A stretch of DNA of 26,998 nucleotides. Source: a virus. Below, piece after piece: positions 1 through 12,224 of the stretch. A model generated the notes under the pieces. That model made no database searches, was not told where the DNA came from, and saw nothing but the letters and a program-made list of their open reading frames with translations. Within the stretch, counting starts at the first letter, position 1. Each line of letters opens with the position of its first letter. The stretch lies in the IMG/VR virus record IMGVR_UViG_3300032174_000019, positions 1-26,998 of that record. One strand, 5' to 3'. A program made the translations under genes and the position numbers.

Positions 1-1629
1 ATATATTCATCAAATGGAACCACTTGGACAGCTACAGGCGTTCTGAATTCGAATGCACCTGCAAGCATGGTATATGGAACGAATTTTGTCATGGTAGGTG
101 CTAGTGGCGCTGTGAATAATTCTACAGATGGAATTCATTGGACTACACGATGCCCAAATGCTACAGCTCTTGTGTATGGTACTAAAATCGTCTCAGGTCA
201 AAGCTTAGATCTTTGCACATCGACTGATGGTGTGACTTATTCTGCAAGCGTATCACCTGCCACAAACAACATACTTGCCTTGACTTATGGCTCTGTATAT
301 GTATATGGAGGGAACGCAGGAATACTAGGAACCTCTACTGATGGTATAACCTGGACAGCACGGACAAGTGGCACTGCCTCGAACATAAACGCTCTTACAT
401 TTGGTAATTCACTCTATGTGTATGCCGGTGCAGGTGGTGTGGCTGCTAGCTCAACCGATGGTATAACCTGGACAGCACGGACAAGTAATACATCATCAGC
501 ACTCAACGGACTGATTTATGGAACATCATATGTTGCAGGAGGTGCTGGCGGTGTTATCACAAGCTCGACCGATGCTATCACATGGACAGTACGTACAAGT
601 GGCACTTCGTCAATAATTAACGCATTGACGTATGGAACTGTGCATGTATATGGCGGCGCAGGAGGTGTTCTAGCAACATCTACGGACGGCACCACATGGA
701 CAGCGAGAACTAGCCATACGACATCTGCCATTCAGTCTCTTACATTTGGTAATTCTACCTATGTGTATGGAGGCGTAGGTGGAGTAATCGCGAGCTCTAC
801 TGATGCCATTACCTGGACAGTGCGCACAAGCAATACAACTACGACTGTTTCATCGTTAACATATAATGGTTCTGTATTTGTTGCTGGAGGCTTTGGCTTA
901 TCGATAACATCTACCGATGGTACGACTTGGGCCCCATATGCAGGTTCATTTACAACCAGCAACTTAAATACCGTAACTTATGGTAATGGCTTGTATGTAG
1001 CGGCGGGGATTGGTGGCGCTTTGGGAAGCTCTACAGATGGTCTTACTTGGACCTCAAGAACATCAAATACCTCTTCGAACATTGATGGTCTAGCCTATGG
1101 TGCAGGAGTTTATAGCTATTGTGGTGCAGGTGGTGTGGTTGCCAGTTCAACCGATGCCATTACATGGACCGTGAGAACTTCTGCGACTACAACCGCACTC
1201 ACTAACTTGGTTTATGGCACACAATTTGTTGCTTATGGCACAAATGTCATCGCGACATCTACTGATGGCACAACTTGGACTTCGACTGCTGCAAGCTTAG
1301 GAACGCTGAGCCAATTTCAACAACTTACGTATGGAAATGGTATATATGTGGCAGTGAATAACGCCAACGGCATATTTACCTCTACCAACGGTACCTCCTT
1401 TGTATCACAAAATAATGGAGGAAACGCATCAAACGGTGCTATTACCTCAGGTAACGGATTATTTGTGATAACTGGTAGCGGTGTAACCACCGCAAGTAAC
1501 ACATATGGATACAATCCTGCAACGCAATTCCAAGTTCCTCATGACAATAATTTGGCTATTGTGACAGAATTGACAGGACCTACGCAAGGCAACTTCCCTA
1601 GGTCGTTATTCATAAAGGCTTTGAATTGA
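1..1629 (+). CDS. Repeat-rich beta-propeller-like tail fibre / receptor-binding protein (5' end missing)
   Basis: The frame is open from base 1 and already encodes the repeat motif there, so the gene begins outside the window; the first internal ATG (67) is not the true start. The visible protein is about 13 tandem units of 34-39 residues with consensus S-[ST]-T-D-[GA]-I-T-W-T-[AV]-R-T-S, a variable Thr/Ser/Asn linker, [LIV]-x-Y-G, then a Gly/Val-rich strand. This is the look of BNR/Ycf48-like beta-propeller blades. After the last unit comes a non-repetitive C-terminal segment of about 45 residues. By length and repeats it is inferred to be a virion fibre or adhesin that contacts the host surface. 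The neighbouring glycosyltransferase-like gene fits a surface-recognition cassette. A phage-borne surface protein of another kind is possible. Confidence 0.6.
   Translation: MYSSNGTTWTATGVLNSNAPASMVYGTNFVMVGASGAVNNSTDGIHWTTRCPNATALVYGTKIVSGQSLDLCTSTDGVTYSASVSPATNNILALTYGSVYVYGGNAGILGTSTDGITWTARTSGTASNINALTFGNSLYVYAGAGGVAASSTDGITWTARTSNTSSALNGLIYGTSYVAGGAGGVITSSTDAITWTVRTSGTSSIINALTYGTVHVYGGAGGVLATSTDGTTWTARTSHTTSAIQSLTFGNSTYVYGGVGGVIASSTDAITWTVRTSNTTTTVSSLTYNGSVFVAGGFGLSITSTDGTTWAPYAGSFTTSNLNTVTYGNGLYVAAGIGGALGSSTDGLTWTSRTSNTSSNIDGLAYGAGVYSYCGAGGVVASSTDAITWTVRTSATTTALTNLVYGTQFVAYGTNVIATSTDGTTWTSTAASLGTLSQFQQLTYGNGIYVAVNNANGIFTSTNGTSFVSQNNGGNASNGAITSGNGLFVITGSGVTTASNTYGYNPATQFQVPHDNNLAIVTELTGPTQGNFPRSLFIKALN
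340..486 (+). repeat. Direct DNA repeat within the fibre gene, two exact 30-bp copies
   Basis: Bases 340-369 and 457-486 are identical over 30 bp. The offset is 117 bp, exactly 39 codons, or one propeller-like unit. Most other units resemble each other only at the protein level, so this pair looks like a recent unit duplication or gene-conversion tract and a likely site of repeat-number change. Confidence 0.8.
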
Positions 1630-3565: not shown

Positions 3566-3639
3566 CGTCGGATCTAGGATTCGAACCTAGGACATCAAAA
3601 TTAACAGTTTTGCGCTCTAACCAACTGAGCTAATCCGAC
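3566..3639 (-). tRNA. tRNA-Asn (anticodon GTT)
   Basis: The reverse complement folds into a full cloverleaf of 74 nt. The acceptor stem GTCGGAT pairs with ATCCGAC, the D stem is GCTC/GAGC, the anticodon stem CAAAA/TTTTG encloses the loop CTGTTAA with anticodon GTT, and the T arm is CTAGG-TTCGAAT-CCTAG. The discriminator base is G, as usual for tRNA-Asn. The CCA end is not encoded. It lies in the leftward early block between two small genes. Confidence 0.95.
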
Positions 3640-5880: not shown

Positions 5881-6891
5881 TCATTTGTTAAAACTTTTTT
5901 TCCATTGATTTAAAACTGCACTAAATTGCTCGCAAGGCATATCATAGACTAGGCACTCAGTTTTGCTTCCTCTGAAAAAGTAGACTTTGTCGCTTTCGGC
6001 GGCAATGCTTTTTTGGCCTCGGTCCTTAGGCGACATTGCGAATACTTCATTTTCTAATTGTTTTGCCTCCAGTTGATTTTTCATCATTTCCGGTATGGAT
6101 ACACCACCTTTACTTTTTTGGCCAATCCCAGGTCCATTAGGATTCGAAATTTTGGCCTTCTTGGAATCCGACATTCGATTGTAATAAGTTTCCATGGCTT
6201 TGGGATAATTGGCATAGCCTTGGGTGCGACTGGTCATGCAATAGGCATTTACGTCATCTATGAGCCGTTTGACCATGGGCTTGCCCCATTTTGTGATCAT
6301 TTCGGCATGTTCTGGATCCTTGAGCTTGACATACTCGCCATAAGGTTTTGTTTGTTCTGAAGGATTAATTGAAGGAAGCGCCTCGCGCGTCTCTCTCTCT
6401 ATATTCTTAATGGGTTCTTCTTTATGCTCGTTTGGCGAGGTACCCTCCCTCGCCACGCGAGGTACCCCTCCCCCGTTTGGCGAGGTACCCCTATTCGTTC
6501 TGTAATGATCTCCATTAATTCTCCAAATATCGACTATTTTTATTAAATTTGAATCTTTACTACCATCGGGTTTATTTCTATGAATAATTTCTATCAAACA
6601 TCCTTTAATAAATAAATCCTTTGTACTAAGTTCCTGTAAGCATTGCCTCAATGTTGTAATTCCAATACCAATCCTATGAGCTAAATGTTTCATGGTCATC
6701 CAACATCGACCAGCTTCTCCTGTGATTCGCTTGATATGAAAATAAACAGCAAGCTGAATCGGATTTAAAATTTCTCCAATAATATTTGGAATCTCGGTGC
6801 GGAAGTGATGATCTGGATGTTCTTGTACGAACTCTGCGTTTTCTTCAGACATAAAATGCCTTGGCAACATGGTGTAGAAACCATGCATCAT
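5881..6891 (-). CDS. Replication initiator / replisome organiser-like protein, about 336 aa
   Basis: Residues about 40-95 form a winged-helix-like domain (ILNPIQLAVYFHIKR ... MTMKHLAHRIGIGITTLRQ) typical of phage replication initiators. A low-complexity linker follows. Near 190-250 is the pattern YGEYVKLKDPEHAEM ... YANYPKAMETYYNR, shared with many phage replisome-organiser C-termini. The expected role is to bind origin repeats and bring in host helicase. Iteron-like repeats lie inside the linker-coding DNA, as in lambda O. The start is ATG 6891 or 6888, with only a weak AGAAAG site and an 18-bp hairpin covering the start codon, which suggests translational control. Confidence 0.7.
   Translation of the reverse strand: MMHGFYTMLPRHFMSEENAEFVQEHPDHHFRTEIPNIIGEILNPIQLAVYFHIKRITGEAGRCWMTMKHLAHRIGIGITTLRQCLQELSTKDLFIKGCLIEIIHRNKPDGSKDSNLIKIVDIWRINGDHYRTNRGTSPNGGGVPRVAREGTSPNEHKEEPIKNIERETREALPSINPSEQTKPYGEYVKLKDPEHAEMITKWGKPMVKRLIDDVNAYCMTSRTQGYANYPKAMETYYNRMSDSKKAKISNPNGPGIGQKSKGGVSIPEMMKNQLEAKQLENEVFAMSPKDRGQKSIAAESDKVYFFRGSKTECLVYDMPCEQFSAVLNQWKKSFNK
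6429..6490. repeat. Iteron-like repeats, candidate replication origin inside the initiator gene
   Basis: The core GCGAGGTACCC occurs three times, at 6435-6445, 6457-6467 and 6480-6490 (spacings 22 and 23 bp, about two helical turns). Two copies extend to CGTTTGGCGAGGTACCC (6429-6445 and 6474-6490). Outer copies encode GTSPN, but the middle one is read in another frame (GVPRVA), so the DNA rather than the protein is conserved. An AT-rich tract (about 6491-6630) adjoins and could be the unwinding element. Confidence 0.65.
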
Positions 6892-6958
6892 CAAGACATT
6901 CTTTCTGCTTGCAGCAATTGAGTTTTATGCTACAATGGTGAACGTCTTGATGACGCAT
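6883..6958 (-). promoter_or_regulatory. 18-bp leader hairpin covering the replication gene start
   Basis: In the leftward transcript ATGCGTCATCAAGACGTT (6958-6941) can pair with AATGTCTTGATGATGCAT (6900-6883) over all 18 positions, 16 Watson-Crick and two G-U, around a 40-nt loop. The second arm contains the start codons of the replication gene, and the weak AGAAAG ribosome site lies at the loop edge. On the plus strand the same two positions would be A-C mismatches, so the fold favours the minus-strand RNA. Confidence 0.65.
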
Positions 6959-6961
6959 ATT

Positions 6962-6997
6962 CGAGCTACCCCTTCCACAAAACAAAAGGGTAGCTCG
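6962..6997 (-). promoter_or_regulatory. 10-bp hairpin in the replication gene leader
   Basis: CGAGCTACCC (6962-6971) and GGGTAGCTCG (6988-6997) are perfect inverted repeats around a 16-nt loop. The structure lies just downstream of the exonuclease gene and three bases before the 18-bp hairpin. No T-run follows on either strand, so it is not a standard intrinsic terminator. An RNA stability, processing or attenuator element is more likely. Confidence 0.6.
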
Positions 6998-7030
6998 TTC
7001 ACTTTTCGACTGTAAACTTGACTTTATTTT

Positions 7031-7924
7031 TCAGCCACTACTTTCTTTTTCGATCTCAATTTTCCAGCTCACACTAGACTCTCGACGGTATTTTTCTAAG
7101 TCAACACCTATCAATTCAGGCACTTTTGAGTAGTCAACTAGCCCCTTTCTTTTTGACATTTTGACTCTCACGCCATCCCACCTGACATTCCTGCTACCAG
7201 CTAACTCAATCATCACATTCTGAGTACGCTCAAGAGCTTCCATTCGAGTCTTGAGCATAGCCTGAGCCTCTTTCACAGCCGCCCATTCGCGCTTGTAAAT
7301 TCCATTGAGATCAGCAAGCTTTGGCTCCTCTGCAAACTCGTCCTCAGATAGTTCTGGAGGCTGCATAATAAGCAGTCGCTCGTAAAATTCGAGCTCCTTC
7401 TTAACCATATCTGCAATGTACTCATCGTTCCTGACGCACCTGATGCTGTATATCTCATCGAAAAGCTTGTCATAAACGTCATACATCACATACTCCACCT
7501 CGGCACACTTGATCTGGTGCTGAAGCTGTGGATAGTAATGCTTAGGGATAATGCCCCGCCTAGCTAAATCTAGATCGGTACTTCCTGGCGTCTTGATCTC
7601 GTGTATCTCCCCACCTTCGGTCATCCCATCTAGACTAGCGATCATCCACGGATACTGATTGCTTTCAATTACACATGGTGCTAGCATAACACCGTACTTT
7701 AGCCTCATGCATTCTCTAGCTAGGCTTTCGGACTCTTTCCCATTTCGCATAGCTGGCGTCACTGGATTGATTCGTAAGCCTACTTTTTCCTCATATACAC
7801 TCTTTGCAGTGCCCCACGGGGATACTCCCATGATCTTAGGGGCATCGCTCGCACCAATACGCATGGCGCGATATTCATGCCATTCAGGCGTGTCCTGCTC
7901 TAAGTTGATTTTTTTGTAGGACAA
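7031..7924 (-). CDS. YqaJ-family phage exonuclease / recombinase (PD-(D/E)XK)
   Basis: The 297-residue product carries the YqaJ pattern: WHEYR near 15-19, RIGASDAPKIMG (22-33), NGKESE with Glu64, ASLDG with Asp99, EIKTPG with Glu109 and Lys111, and QLQHQ (133-137) that completes the nuclease core. It is a 5'-3' double-strand DNA exonuclease of the lambda Exo type, acting with the annealing protein encoded just upstream in the same block. The start is a TTG at 7924 with GGAGG five bases upstream; the first ATG would remove residues 1-20, including the conserved start of the domain. Confidence 0.85.
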   Translation of the reverse strand: MSYKKINLEQDTPEWHEYRAMRIGASDAPKIMGVSPWGTAKSVYEEKVGLRINPVTPAMRNGKESESLARECMRLKYGVMLAPCVIESNQYPWMIASLDGMTEGGEIHEIKTPGSTDLDLARRGIIPKHYYPQLQHQIKCAEVEYVMYDVYDKLFDEIYSIRCVRNDEYIADMVKKELEFYERLLIMQPPELSEDEFAEEPKLADLNGIYKREWAAVKEAQAMLKTRMEALERTQNVMIELAGSRNVRWDGVRVKMSKRKGLVDYSKVPELIGVDLEKYRRESSVSWKIEIEKESSG

Positions 7925-8085
7925 TTGAGCCTCCGTAAATATTCGTTATCAAACTTCTCTTTAATAATTATATTGGCGAGAATGTGGGCTAATTCACGCA
8001 ACTTCTCTTCATTAGTGCGGAACATCTCAAGATGCTCGCGCCACTTCTCCTCCACTAACTGGAGTATGTAACTTGAATTTGTCAT
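7900..8085 (-). CDS. Small hypothetical protein between recombination genes, 61 aa
   Basis: Not recognised. A short, probably all-helical, charged protein (MTNSSYILQLVEEKWREHLE ...). GAGGGAG lies eight bases before the ATG, which overlaps the stop of the annealing-protein gene as ATGA; its 3' end overlaps the exonuclease gene by 25 bases. This tight wedge between the two recombination genes suggests a co-made helper or inhibitor protein, with no direct evidence. Confidence 0.55.
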   Translation of the reverse strand: MTNSSYILQLVEEKWREHLEMFRTNEEKLRELAHILANIIIKEKFDNEYLRRLNCPTKKST

Positions 8086-8762
8086 ACTAAAAACTCCCTC
8101 TGAATCTCTTCTTGCTCTTTGATACCAGCAATTTTATCACCTCTCAAAATTGCTTCTCGACGTATAATTTCTCTATAAAGATTATCGTCTAAATCGTCTA
8201 CAGTTTTGTCTTTTCCAAGTGAATTGATTGCGTTCTGTACTAGCTTGGGAAATTCTTTTTGTATTTCCAGCACCTTTGCTTTTTGTGTAGCAGTGAGAAC
8301 GGTCTTAAAATAACCTTGAGGTTTTGATGTCGCTTGTTGCGATACCTGATTCTTGACCACTTGAGCCTCTCCTTCATTAGCGTCATCATCCTCATCGCCG
8401 GCAATGCATCCGGTAATTGCTGAATATGCGTAACGTCTAAAGTAAGTCAAAGCGCTACCGAACCCTTGAGGAGTCTGCTTCTCGGCAAATATAGGCAACT
8501 CCCCCTTGATCCATTGCCCACTAGAATGCGTCAATGTGGTAATGAGGATTAATGTGCCAACCTCATTTATGTAGGTAGTTTGGCATACTGCTAGGCCATG
8601 TTTAGACAAGATCTCTCTCGATGCGCTGACTAAGCCGCCCATATCGGTATATTCTGACTTGAAGAAAGGATTCTTTCTATTAGCAGGGACGAGTCTCATC
8701 TCCCCCTGAGCTTTTGATAAAGCCGTAAAAAGCTCGCTTACACTATCTGACATGATATTCAT
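8082..8762 (-). CDS. ERF-family single-strand annealing protein
   Basis: The product (226 aa from the chosen start) shows the ERF superfamily core: LSKAQGEM, NPFFKSEYTDMGGL, then STLTHSSGQW-like and the hallmark QGFGSALTYFRRYA (near 98-112) followed by an acidic GDEDDD segment. ERF proteins, such as the one of phage P22, bind single-stranded DNA and anneal complementary strands in phage recombination and genome circularisation. The ATG at 8762 has GGAGGT about five bases upstream. Paired with a YqaJ exonuclease it forms an Exo/Bet-like recombination module. The Gln/Lys-rich C-terminal half is variable in the family. Confidence 0.9.
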   Translation of the reverse strand: MNIMSDSVSELFTALSKAQGEMRLVPANRKNPFFKSEYTDMGGLVSASREILSKHGLAVCQTTYINEVGTLILITTLTHSSGQWIKGELPIFAEKQTPQGFGSALTYFRRYAYSAITGCIAGDEDDDANEGEAQVVKNQVSQQATSKPQGYFKTVLTATQKAKVLEIQKEFPKLVQNAINSLGKDKTVDDLDDNLYREIIRREAILRGDKIAGIKEQEEIQREFLV

Positions 8763-9055
8763 TTCACACCTCCTAAACACATTTTCTCGACTGATTCTTC
8801 GACATCGATGATTTTGAGCAAAACCTTTTGCCGTGCTTCATATCTCGATGCAATATCATCGGAATGCACTACTATTTCTTTGAGAGCTGTGACATATAGG
8901 TCATCTAATCGCATTCTTAGCTCACCTTTGATCATTTTCAGCTCGTCACGAAAATGGTGCGATGTCTTTACCAGCTCTTTTTCTAAATGCTTGGCGTAGG
9001 TGCAATCTTCGATATGCTCCATTCCGCAGGTTTCATCGTAGTGGACTTTACACAT
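8759..9055 (-). CDS. Hypothetical first gene of the leftward early block, 98 aa
   Basis: Not recognised. The N-terminus has a Cys/His cluster (MCKVHYDETCGMEH ... DC) that could bind metal, followed by a long charged helical region (about 20-90) likely to form a coiled coil. AGGAGG lies six bases before the ATG, and its stop overlaps the ERF start (ATGA). As the promoter-proximal gene it is likely the earliest expressed of this block. Confidence 0.6.
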   Translation of the reverse strand: MCKVHYDETCGMEHIEDCTYAKHLEKELVKTSHHFRDELKMIKGELRMRLDDLYVTALKEIVVHSDDIASRYEARQKVLLKIIDVEESVEKMCLGGVK

Positions 9056-10278: not shown

Positions 10279-10737
10279 ATGCCAGGACAAAATAAAGCTC
10301 AAATTATGAAACGTCGGCTCCCCGCTCCTCCATATAAATACGACCGTAAAGAGGTAGTAGAGAAGATGTTTAAGTGGGCGGAGAAAGAGACATCGACCAT
10401 ATTTGTTGATTTTTGCTTCCAAGAGAAAATACCTAGAAATGCTATCAATACAATGGTCTATGAATCCGAAGAGTTTGCGGATGCTTATGAGCTTGTAAAG
10501 ATGAAACTGGCTGAAAGACGGGAGCGACACCTGAATCGAGAGCAGATGCACGTGCATGCCTACAATCGTTATCAAGCATGTTATGACCCATTCTTGCATG
10601 AACATGAAACCAAAGAAAAAGATCTCGAAGCTCAGCGGAAGAAAGAGCAGGAAGCAGCAGCAGCCACAAACTTAGTGGAACTTGCTAAGATGGCAGCTGA
10701 AGGGCAAATCTGTCAAAAAGATGAAGGATGTCAATAA
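10279..10737 (+). CDS. Terminase small subunit candidate
   Basis: A 152-residue helical protein directly upstream of the large terminase with a 10-base overlap, the canonical position for the small subunit. It has a central helical DNA-recognition-like part (VVEKMFKWAEKETSTIFVDF, then a helix ending SEEFADAYELV) and a charged C-terminal helix (ERRERHLNREQ ... EAQRKKEQEAAAA). Small terminase binds the pac or cos site and loads DNA to the motor. The family is too divergent to confirm by eye. The ATG at 10279 follows a GAGAGAAG stretch; a TTG at 10267 is the alternative. Confidence 0.6.
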   Translation: MPGQNKAQIMKRRLPAPPYKYDRKEVVEKMFKWAEKETSTIFVDFCFQEKIPRNAINTMVYESEEFADAYELVKMKLAERRERHLNREQMHVHAYNRYQACYDPFLHEHETKEKDLEAQRKKEQEAAAATNLVELAKMAAEGQICQKDEGCQ

Positions 10738-12224
10738 ACTCCAAAAAGTGGCGTCTCAATAATCTTTACAGGATAGTTGACCGTAACAGTAATTCGATTC
10801 CATTTAGGCTAAATCATGTCCAAGAGCATGTCTTGGACAATATGCATAATCGAAATCTGATTCTTAAAGCCCGACAGCTCGGTATGAGCACATTTGCGGT
10901 ACTTTATCTATTAGATGAGACACTCTTTAACGAAAATCTGGCTTCCGGAATCGTCTCATATAGCCTTGAACATGCTCAGCATATCTTTAAGCGTATCATT
11001 GGTCACGCTCTAGATACCCTCCCACATGAGATCAAAGCCCTTGCAGGTATAGTACAGAGGTCAGCCCGTGAGATCAATTTTAATAACGGCAGCAGCCTTC
11101 GCGTGGATACTACGCTACGAGGTGGTTCATATCCTCTTGTCTTGGTATCGGAGTTTGGTAAAACATGCTCACGCAATCCTCAAAAGGCTGAGGAAGTAAT
11201 CACAGGTACTTTACAAGCAGTGCCAAAAGATGGCAAAGTAATCATAGAGAGCACCGGGGAAGGCAATGAAGGCTTCTTTGCAGAAATGATCATGGAGGCT
11301 GCGCGACGAGGCAACGAAGGAATCACAAACCTCGACTACAAGCTTTTCTTCTATAATTGGTTGCAAGAGCCTTCATATACTATTGAAGAGCCAGTTAAAT
11401 ATGATGTGAGCCTGACAGACTATTTCAATAACCTTGAGAAAGAGCTCAGCATAAAGATCACTCAACCTCAACGCAATTGGTATGCAAAGCAGACAATCTC
11501 ATTAAAAGATAAGATCAAGCAAGAGTTCCCAAGCACTATTGCAGAAGCGTTCTTAAGCACCTCAGATGCATTTTACTTCGCTGAAGGAGTCACCAATGCC
11601 TATGCTGAAAATCGTTGCCTCTATACTCCTTTATACGATGCTCTTCTTCCTGTCTATGTTGCTATGGATATTGGTGTTAATGACCTTACTGTTCTGGTGT
11701 TTTTCCAGTTAGCACATGGTGAGGTGCGAGTCATCGATTATTATGAGGATAAGAACAAGGGAGTGGATTTCTACGCAAAGTTTCTGCTCCAAGAAAAGAA
11801 ATTTCTCTATCACACTATATTCCTACCTCACGACTCGACAAAACGAGATGCGCTCGATACCTCAAATACATATGAGAGAGACTTTCGGCGTCTTTTTTCC
11901 GGGACCAATACTGTCTTTCACGTCCTCAAGCGAATGGATAAACAATTATCTATATCCCATGCAAAAACGATTCTCGATCGCTGTGTCTTCAACGTAAATC
12001 GTGTTAAGCCATTCCTGGACAAAGTCTCGAAGTACCGAAAAAAGTGGAATGAAGCACTCGGTAGATATATGGAGGAGCCTTTGCATAACGATGCATCAAA
12101 CTACGCGGATGCCTTTCAGTATACTTGTCAGGCAGTTGGTCATCTCGAAACAGTATCAAGCATGCGTGGCGCTTTGGATAAGCACAAGAAAGTCGTTTCT
12201 GAGCGCAACAAGTTTATCTGGTAA
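10728..12224 (+). CDS. terL: Terminase large subunit
   Basis: The 498-residue protein has both motor and nuclease parts. The ATPase Walker A-like loop is KARQLGMST (47-55), Walker B is LVLVSEFG with catalytic Glu142 (137-144), and the coupling motif is ESTGEGNEG (174-182). The RNase H-like nuclease is built from Asp314 (VAMDIGVND), Asp369 (LPHDST) and Asp461 (NYADAFQY). It pumps DNA into the prohead and cuts it. The length is usual for P22-type headful terminases. The ATG overlaps the small-subunit gene and has only a poor ribosome site, suggesting coupled translation. Confidence 0.95.
   Translation: MSINSKKWRLNNLYRIVDRNSNSIPFRLNHVQEHVLDNMHNRNLILKARQLGMSTFAVLYLLDETLFNENLASGIVSYSLEHAQHIFKRIIGHALDTLPHEIKALAGIVQRSAREINFNNGSSLRVDTTLRGGSYPLVLVSEFGKTCSRNPQKAEEVITGTLQAVPKDGKVIIESTGEGNEGFFAEMIMEAARRGNEGITNLDYKLFFYNWLQEPSYTIEEPVKYDVSLTDYFNNLEKELSIKITQPQRNWYAKQTISLKDKIKQEFPSTIAEAFLSTSDAFYFAEGVTNAYAENRCLYTPLYDALLPVYVAMDIGVNDLTVLVFFQLAHGEVRVIDYYEDKNKGVDFYAKFLLQEKKFLYHTIFLPHDSTKRDALDTSNTYERDFRRLFSGTNTVFHVLKRMDKQLSISHAKTILDRCVFNVNRVKPFLDKVSKYRKKWNEALGRYMEEPLHNDASNYADAFQYTCQAVGHLETVSSMRGALDKHKKVVSERNKFIW

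Follow-up and report, generated by a model that had tools for sequence, protein, structure and literature searches.

Iterons of a probable lambda-like replication origin within the initiator gene of an uncultured tailed phage, and similar arrangements in other phage initiators

The replication initiator gene of an uncultured tailed phage contains, within its coding sequence, three direct repeats about two helical turns apart, and it is very likely that these are the iterons of a lambda-like replication origin placed inside that gene. The window, by which we mean the whole stretch of DNA that was analysed, is 26,998 nt long and corresponds to one strand of IMG/VR record IMGVR_UViG_3300032174_000019, positions 1 to 26,998 (features in Table 1). 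A sequence-only reading had proposed three iteron copies, 22 and 23 bp apart, in the linker-coding part of the gene, and exact copies of GCGAGGTACCC (plus strand) do occur there at these spacings, beginning at 6435, 6457 and 6480, with none elsewhere in the window. In the direction of the gene, which lies on the minus strand, the copies have offsets of 0, +23 and +45. The outer two belong to a 17-nt identity, CGTTTGGCGAGGTACCC, at 6429-6445 and 6474-6490, and both encode GTSPN, whereas the middle copy is read one frame apart as GVPR (codons in gene direction AGG GGT ACC TCG CCA AAC, then GGG GTA CCT CGC, then GGT ACC TCG CCA AAC). The 17-base identity, the peptide GTSPN and the change of frame had been noticed in that reading as well. 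The iteron core includes the palindrome GGTACC. The dyad symmetry of the iterons is weak and, unlike in several other initiators, there is no clear dyad with a central A-tract.

Table 1. Positions of the initiator gene, its domains and the candidate origin elements in the window.
Feature	Position	Strand	Details
Replication initiator gene	5881..6894	-	337 aa ORF; HTH_36 and PHROG matches
Winged-helix DNA-binding domain, coding part	6517..6795	-	Residues about 34-126; AlphaFold2, VIA-align
Disordered linker with iterons, coding part	6346..6495	-	Residues about 134-183; low pLDDT
Iteron 1 (gene direction), GGGTACCTCGC	6480..6490	-	Within 17-nt match 6474-6490
Iteron 2	6457..6467	-	23 bp after iteron 1; other frame (GVPR)
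Iteron 3	6435..6445	-	22 bp after iteron 2; within 17-nt match 6429-6445
AT-rich stretch, candidate DNA unwinding element	6491..6640		5' side of iterons in gene direction; GC, GC3, codon shuffle
Inverted repeat upstream of initiator	6961..6998		Arms CGAGCTACCC, 9/11 match to iteron
Second inverted repeat upstream of initiator	6883..6958		19-nt arms, 89%, 38 nt apart

The proposal that the DNA, rather than the protein, is the object of selection was supported. Across the entire 27-kb window, GCGAGGTACCC is the sole word of at least 9 nt with three copies inside 120 bp. When the linker was recoded synonymously 100,000 times with the codon usage of the phage, no recoding (0/100,000) gave a three-copy word longer than 8 nt, compared with the 11 nt of the native word. 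Moreover, relatives keep the position in the linker and the non-codon spacing with unrelated sequence and changing peptides. The recoding test, the spacings and the initiators that share a core with one another (see below) all indicate that reading frame is irrelevant to the maintenance of the repeats.

The tailed-phage assignment is based on two products encoded in the window, a portal of the P22 type (PF16510, E 1e-47) and a major head protein. The initiator gene has as neighbours the genes for an exonuclease resembling RecE and for a single-strand annealing protein of the Erf type, which lie side by side directly upstream of it (7031-8780, minus strand). Elsewhere, the window encodes a tRNA-Asn with anticodon gtt (3566-3639, minus strand), its sole Rfam match, and a 520-aa protein composed of repeated TSTDGITWTARTS-like units (67-1629, plus strand). 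No helicase loader was recognised, and two short genes downstream of the initiator match no family tested (Pfam, PHROG). Translation of the initiator probably starts at the ATG at 6852 (MSEENAEF...), which was picked by comparison with a homologue, L075. The protein matches the PHROG families phrog_270, 'replication initiation protein' (E 3.4e-6), and phrog_19658 (E 3.6e-5). In Pfam, HTH_36 (PF13730) was its only match at E <= 0.01, and a weak one, scoring 22.6 bits (E 9e-5) where the curated cut-off is 25. Neither Phage_rep_O (PF04492) nor RepA_N (PF06970) was matched in Pfam; the likeness to RepA_N is one of fold only, and BLASTP against lambda O gave nothing significant.

The AlphaFold2 model of the initiator predicts with confidence a winged helix at about residues 40-125 (pLDDT 73-91 across most of residues 41-120), followed by a linker in which pLDDT falls below 50 at residues 134-160 and 163-183; on this predicted structure, an N-terminal winged helix precedes a linker encoded by the candidate origin. 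The best VIA-align matches cover residues 34-126 and are to winged helices, including the N-terminal domains of RepA-type plasmid initiators (4pql, 4pt7; Z about 8), a value that points to a common fold and says nothing on function, while Foldseek alone, comparing the model with the PDB, gave no match at E <= 0.001. Beyond the winged helix the full-length model is poor (mean pLDDT 58.7), and the fold of the C-terminal part was therefore left uninterpreted.

An AT-rich stretch adjoins the iterons, in agreement with the sequence-only reading, and its GC content at 6490-6640 is 23-27%, compared with 41.9% for the window. Its GC3 is 0.15, against 0.39 for the whole gene, and its GC content is lower than its amino acids and the codons of the gene would give (codon-shuffle p = 0.001). 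In gene direction it precedes the iterons, on their winged-helix (5') side, which is the reverse of lambda, where, as in many other initiators, the lowest GC is 3' of the iterons; it is thus possible, judging from sequence, that the polarity of the origin in the window is inverted relative to lambda. Because of the 3' GC dip in these other initiators, the idea that an AT-rich flank generally lies on the 5' side was rejected. A GC-skew analysis, which had been proposed as a check, was uninformative: the skew tracks gene orientation in this incomplete genome and gives no origin signal. Two inverted repeats (together 6883-6998) lie between the RecE-like gene and the initiator, and the one with iteron-like arms is possibly, though speculatively, an autoregulatory operator. 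Such an operator does not appear to be a general feature, since an iteron-like inverted repeat with up to two mismatches is absent upstream of most other iteron-bearing initiators.

Binding of the initiator to the three copies is very probable. The N-terminal winged-helix domain would bind each iteron, and the spacing of 22-23 bp, roughly two turns of the helix, would line up the bound domains along one face of the DNA, where they could form a single complex that melts the adjoining AT-rich stretch. The C-terminal domain would then recruit the host helicase or a loader, and replication would start. Such an origin would be placed where the protein is a disordered linker able to tolerate almost any peptide, so that DNA spacing could be kept despite breaking the reading frame.

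Direct searches for relatives of the initiator in IMG/VR, in GTDB genomes and among cultured phages found none, and a search of IMG/VR for the two-copy iteron pattern had no match. No homologue with the exact iteron core of the window was found. Relatives were consequently reached via the terminase, which has 60 relatives in IMG/VR, and via profile searches. A tblastn search with the window initiator against the loci of the terminase relatives found nothing, and the initiators in these loci belong to several unrelated sequence families, so that the replication module is exchanged as a unit within the terminase clade. Closely related terminases are accompanied by initiators of different families (Phage_rep_O, phrog_11233, phrog_9773 and HTH_36-like) when L060, L051, L043 and L030 are compared with the window. 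All 290 ORFs of 180-450 aa in the terminase loci were scanned for 12-nt words repeated 18-26 bp apart, with a score of at least 3, and helically phased repeats were present in 10, nine of which are initiators or initiator-like. Seven are assigned to replication initiation (the window, L060, L051, L043, L049, L030 and L009). A further two, L057 and L052, belong to no PHROG family; a profile search with the window protein had retrieved L057 as an initiator-like homologue, and L052, which starts in a linker-like repeat, is counted as initiator-like only. The tenth, L042, is a non-initiator ORF of an endonuclease family (shuffle p 0.125). The sequence-only reading had described the initiator gene as unlike lambda O, and this holds for the window protein itself, but L060 and L030, members of the same terminase clade, match PF04492, and L060 (= L066) combines a genuine Phage_rep_O protein with a 23/22 layout like that of the window, built on an unrelated word, GAACCAAAGTCACATCG.

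The same arrangement, with other iteron sequences, is present in many other phage initiators. The set surveyed was made up of the L064 initiator's relatives and of cultured phages that two of these initiators had retrieved, each scored against 500 codon shuffles. Phased repeats were significant in many of them, not in all, including those of Skulduggery (spacings 20/22/23), Cruim01 (20/22/23), HU1 (22/23), GJ44 (23/23), pA2SJ1 (23/22), LspM-01 (22/22/21/22) and Vibrio K20; by the same measure, there were none in others, such as Vibrio 199E37-1, KS9 and LE1. In 29 initiator genes, unrelated iteron sequences occupy one and the same position, directly following the winged helix, and 61 spacings of 20-24 bp were counted (mean 22.3). 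Not multiples of three were 47 of the 61, an upper estimate because the set was partly chosen by shuffle p-value, which disfavours codon-phased repeats, and 24 of the 29 genes have at least one frame-breaking spacing. The core TTCGGAAAA is common to four related initiators, those of L114, Skulduggery, Cruim01 and HU1, and is read in two frames (Skulduggery, Cruim01, HU1) or in three (L114), so that the encoded peptides differ (FGK, IRKT, YSEN, PSEN, SSEN). In these related initiators the core is kept and the peptides change, which is the reverse of the outcome, peptide kept and core lost, that had been named beforehand as refuting. Iteron similarity averaged 8.0/10 at winged-helix identity of at least 50% and 6.2/10 below 25%, with near-identical pairs contributing; a rise of this kind would be predicted if it is the winged helix that recognises the iteron.

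Several other features of these initiators were observed. The iterons of L091, L114, L079, L115, L124 and L126 are inverted repeats round an A-rich centre, for example TTCCGGAAAACCGGAA, as in lambda and RepA_N. Leptospira phage LE1 Orf5 (L123), without phased repeats by the measure used, is the same kind of winged-helix protein and is encoded beside a ParA-like gene. Records named as an Enterococcus phage (H81, PQ283533) and an Acinetobacter phage (H82, PQ554527) gave identical match values (28.2% over 96%), and one of the host labels may be wrong. In Listeria phage vB_LmoS_P9 (H25, MZ361825), a match to the C-terminal part of an initiator at 10666-10929 lies under a feature for a tail tape-measure protein, a possible misannotation.

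Other explanations of the three copies have to be weighed against an origin. The repeats could be sites for another protein, or the initiator's own autoregulatory operator, with replication starting elsewhere. Initiator operators in some iteron plasmids are inverted repeats with iteron-like arms, and the inverted repeat just upstream of the gene has arms of this kind. Nevertheless, phased repeats were nearly confined to initiator genes in the ORF scan, they occupy the same place as the annotated origin iterons of lambda, and iteron similarity tracks winged-helix similarity, all of which make this explanation unlikely. It is less likely again, and indeed very improbable, that GTSPN is repeated for the function of the protein and that the DNA similarity is a by-product. 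Both outer copies do encode GTSPN, and a few initiators have repeats in codon phase, such as L057 (21/21, GGHSMTT) and Cormatin (24/24), but the middle copy is out of frame, the 11-nt identity arose in no synonymous recoding, most spacings in the survey break the frame, and the peptides found at this position in relatives are unrelated, in a linker predicted to be disordered.

A hairpin formed by the mRNA of the initiator, acting in attenuation or translation control, would account for the fact that minus-strand RNA from 6420-6500 folds well (-35.7 kcal/mol, z -4.1). However, any two iteron copies can pair as RNA because the core holds the palindrome GGTACC, no Rfam family was matched at the iterons, and the other initiators keep the spacing and not the sequence, which, in a comparison of DNA sequences, is easier to reconcile with phasing of the DNA than with a single RNA fold; we regard such an element as still more improbable than a protein-level repeat. 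Hardly any credence is given to the idea that the repeats are the functionless product of a neutral tandem duplication that happened recently. Short duplications of this kind occur often, and copies 1 and 3 do share 17 identical nt, but copy 2 is identical over 11 nt with a different flank, unlike the trace of one recent duplication. Furthermore, the arrangement recurs in 29 initiators, and among the 290 ORFs scanned a single non-initiator, itself not significant on shuffling, scored as high.

Iterons of an origin within the initiator gene, the preferred reading, have several published counterparts, among them the O genes of lambda and the Stx phages (PMC7466680), oriL inside gene 38 of SPP1 (PMC6316719) and the origins inside the initiator genes of TP901-1 and Tuc2009 (PMC8965321). 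With lambda and Stx O, the window shares direct-repeat iterons within the initiator gene just past the winged helix, an adjoining AT-rich tract and spacings that are likewise not in codon phase; the annotated lambda iterons begin at codon 117 of O and follow one another at 20/24/23 bp. The lambda O/ori arrangement put forward in the sequence-only reading therefore stands as regards in-gene iterons with an AT-rich flank, but not as regards the side of that flank, which is upstream of the iterons here and downstream in lambda. The window differs further in having three iterons instead of four, no clear dyad with an A-tract, and a protein related to lambda O by neither the Pfam nor the BLASTP comparison given above. 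In SPP1 oriL, the origin-binding protein also recognises direct repeats in its own gene beside an AT-rich unwinding element (PMC6316719), but SPP1 has a second origin, oriR, and its own loader and helicase, neither of which was recognised in the window. The replisome organizers TP901-1 ORF13 and Tuc2009 Rep2009 bind direct repeats in their own genes (PMC8965321) and have an HTH_36-type N-terminus; in TP901-1, however, the repeats found here are 15 bp apart and in codon phase, and the protein has a DnaB_2 domain, for which the window protein gave no match.

In RepA_N plasmids, the winged-helix N-terminal domain binds the iterons (pSK41 rep, PMC5703833; PLE RepA, PMC7145576), and the window domain matches the structures 4pql and 4pt7. 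In pSK41 rep, the iterons are central in the gene and the part coding for the origin specifies a dispensable protein linker (PMC5703833). RepA_N iterons are described as directly repeated and as containing inverted sub-repeats that meet at a poly-A tract (PMC7145576), a form seen in L091, L114, L079 and Cormatin, but not clearly in the window, which is, moreover, phage and not plasmid DNA and whose protein lacks the RepA_N family match.

An origin within the gene of its own initiator has been known since phage lambda, and the present comparison finds it to be common among unrelated phages. The textbook arrangement extends to an uncultured clade of phages with a P22-type portal, and also to cultured phages whose annotations name no iterons in the regions read. 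Frame-breaking helical phasing provides a simple rule, requiring nothing but sequence, for locating in-gene origins and for choosing fragments to test for binding or for plasmid replication. We give about even chances to the broader proposal that in-gene iterons are a general trait of the winged-helix initiators of phages, in several families of unrelated sequence, and that the iteron word changes rapidly while the position in the linker and the 20-24 bp phasing are kept, and with the window representing an origin of inverted polarity whose unwinding element lies opposite to that of lambda. If this is true, the origin and the DNA specificity of many uncultured phages would be readable directly from their sequence.
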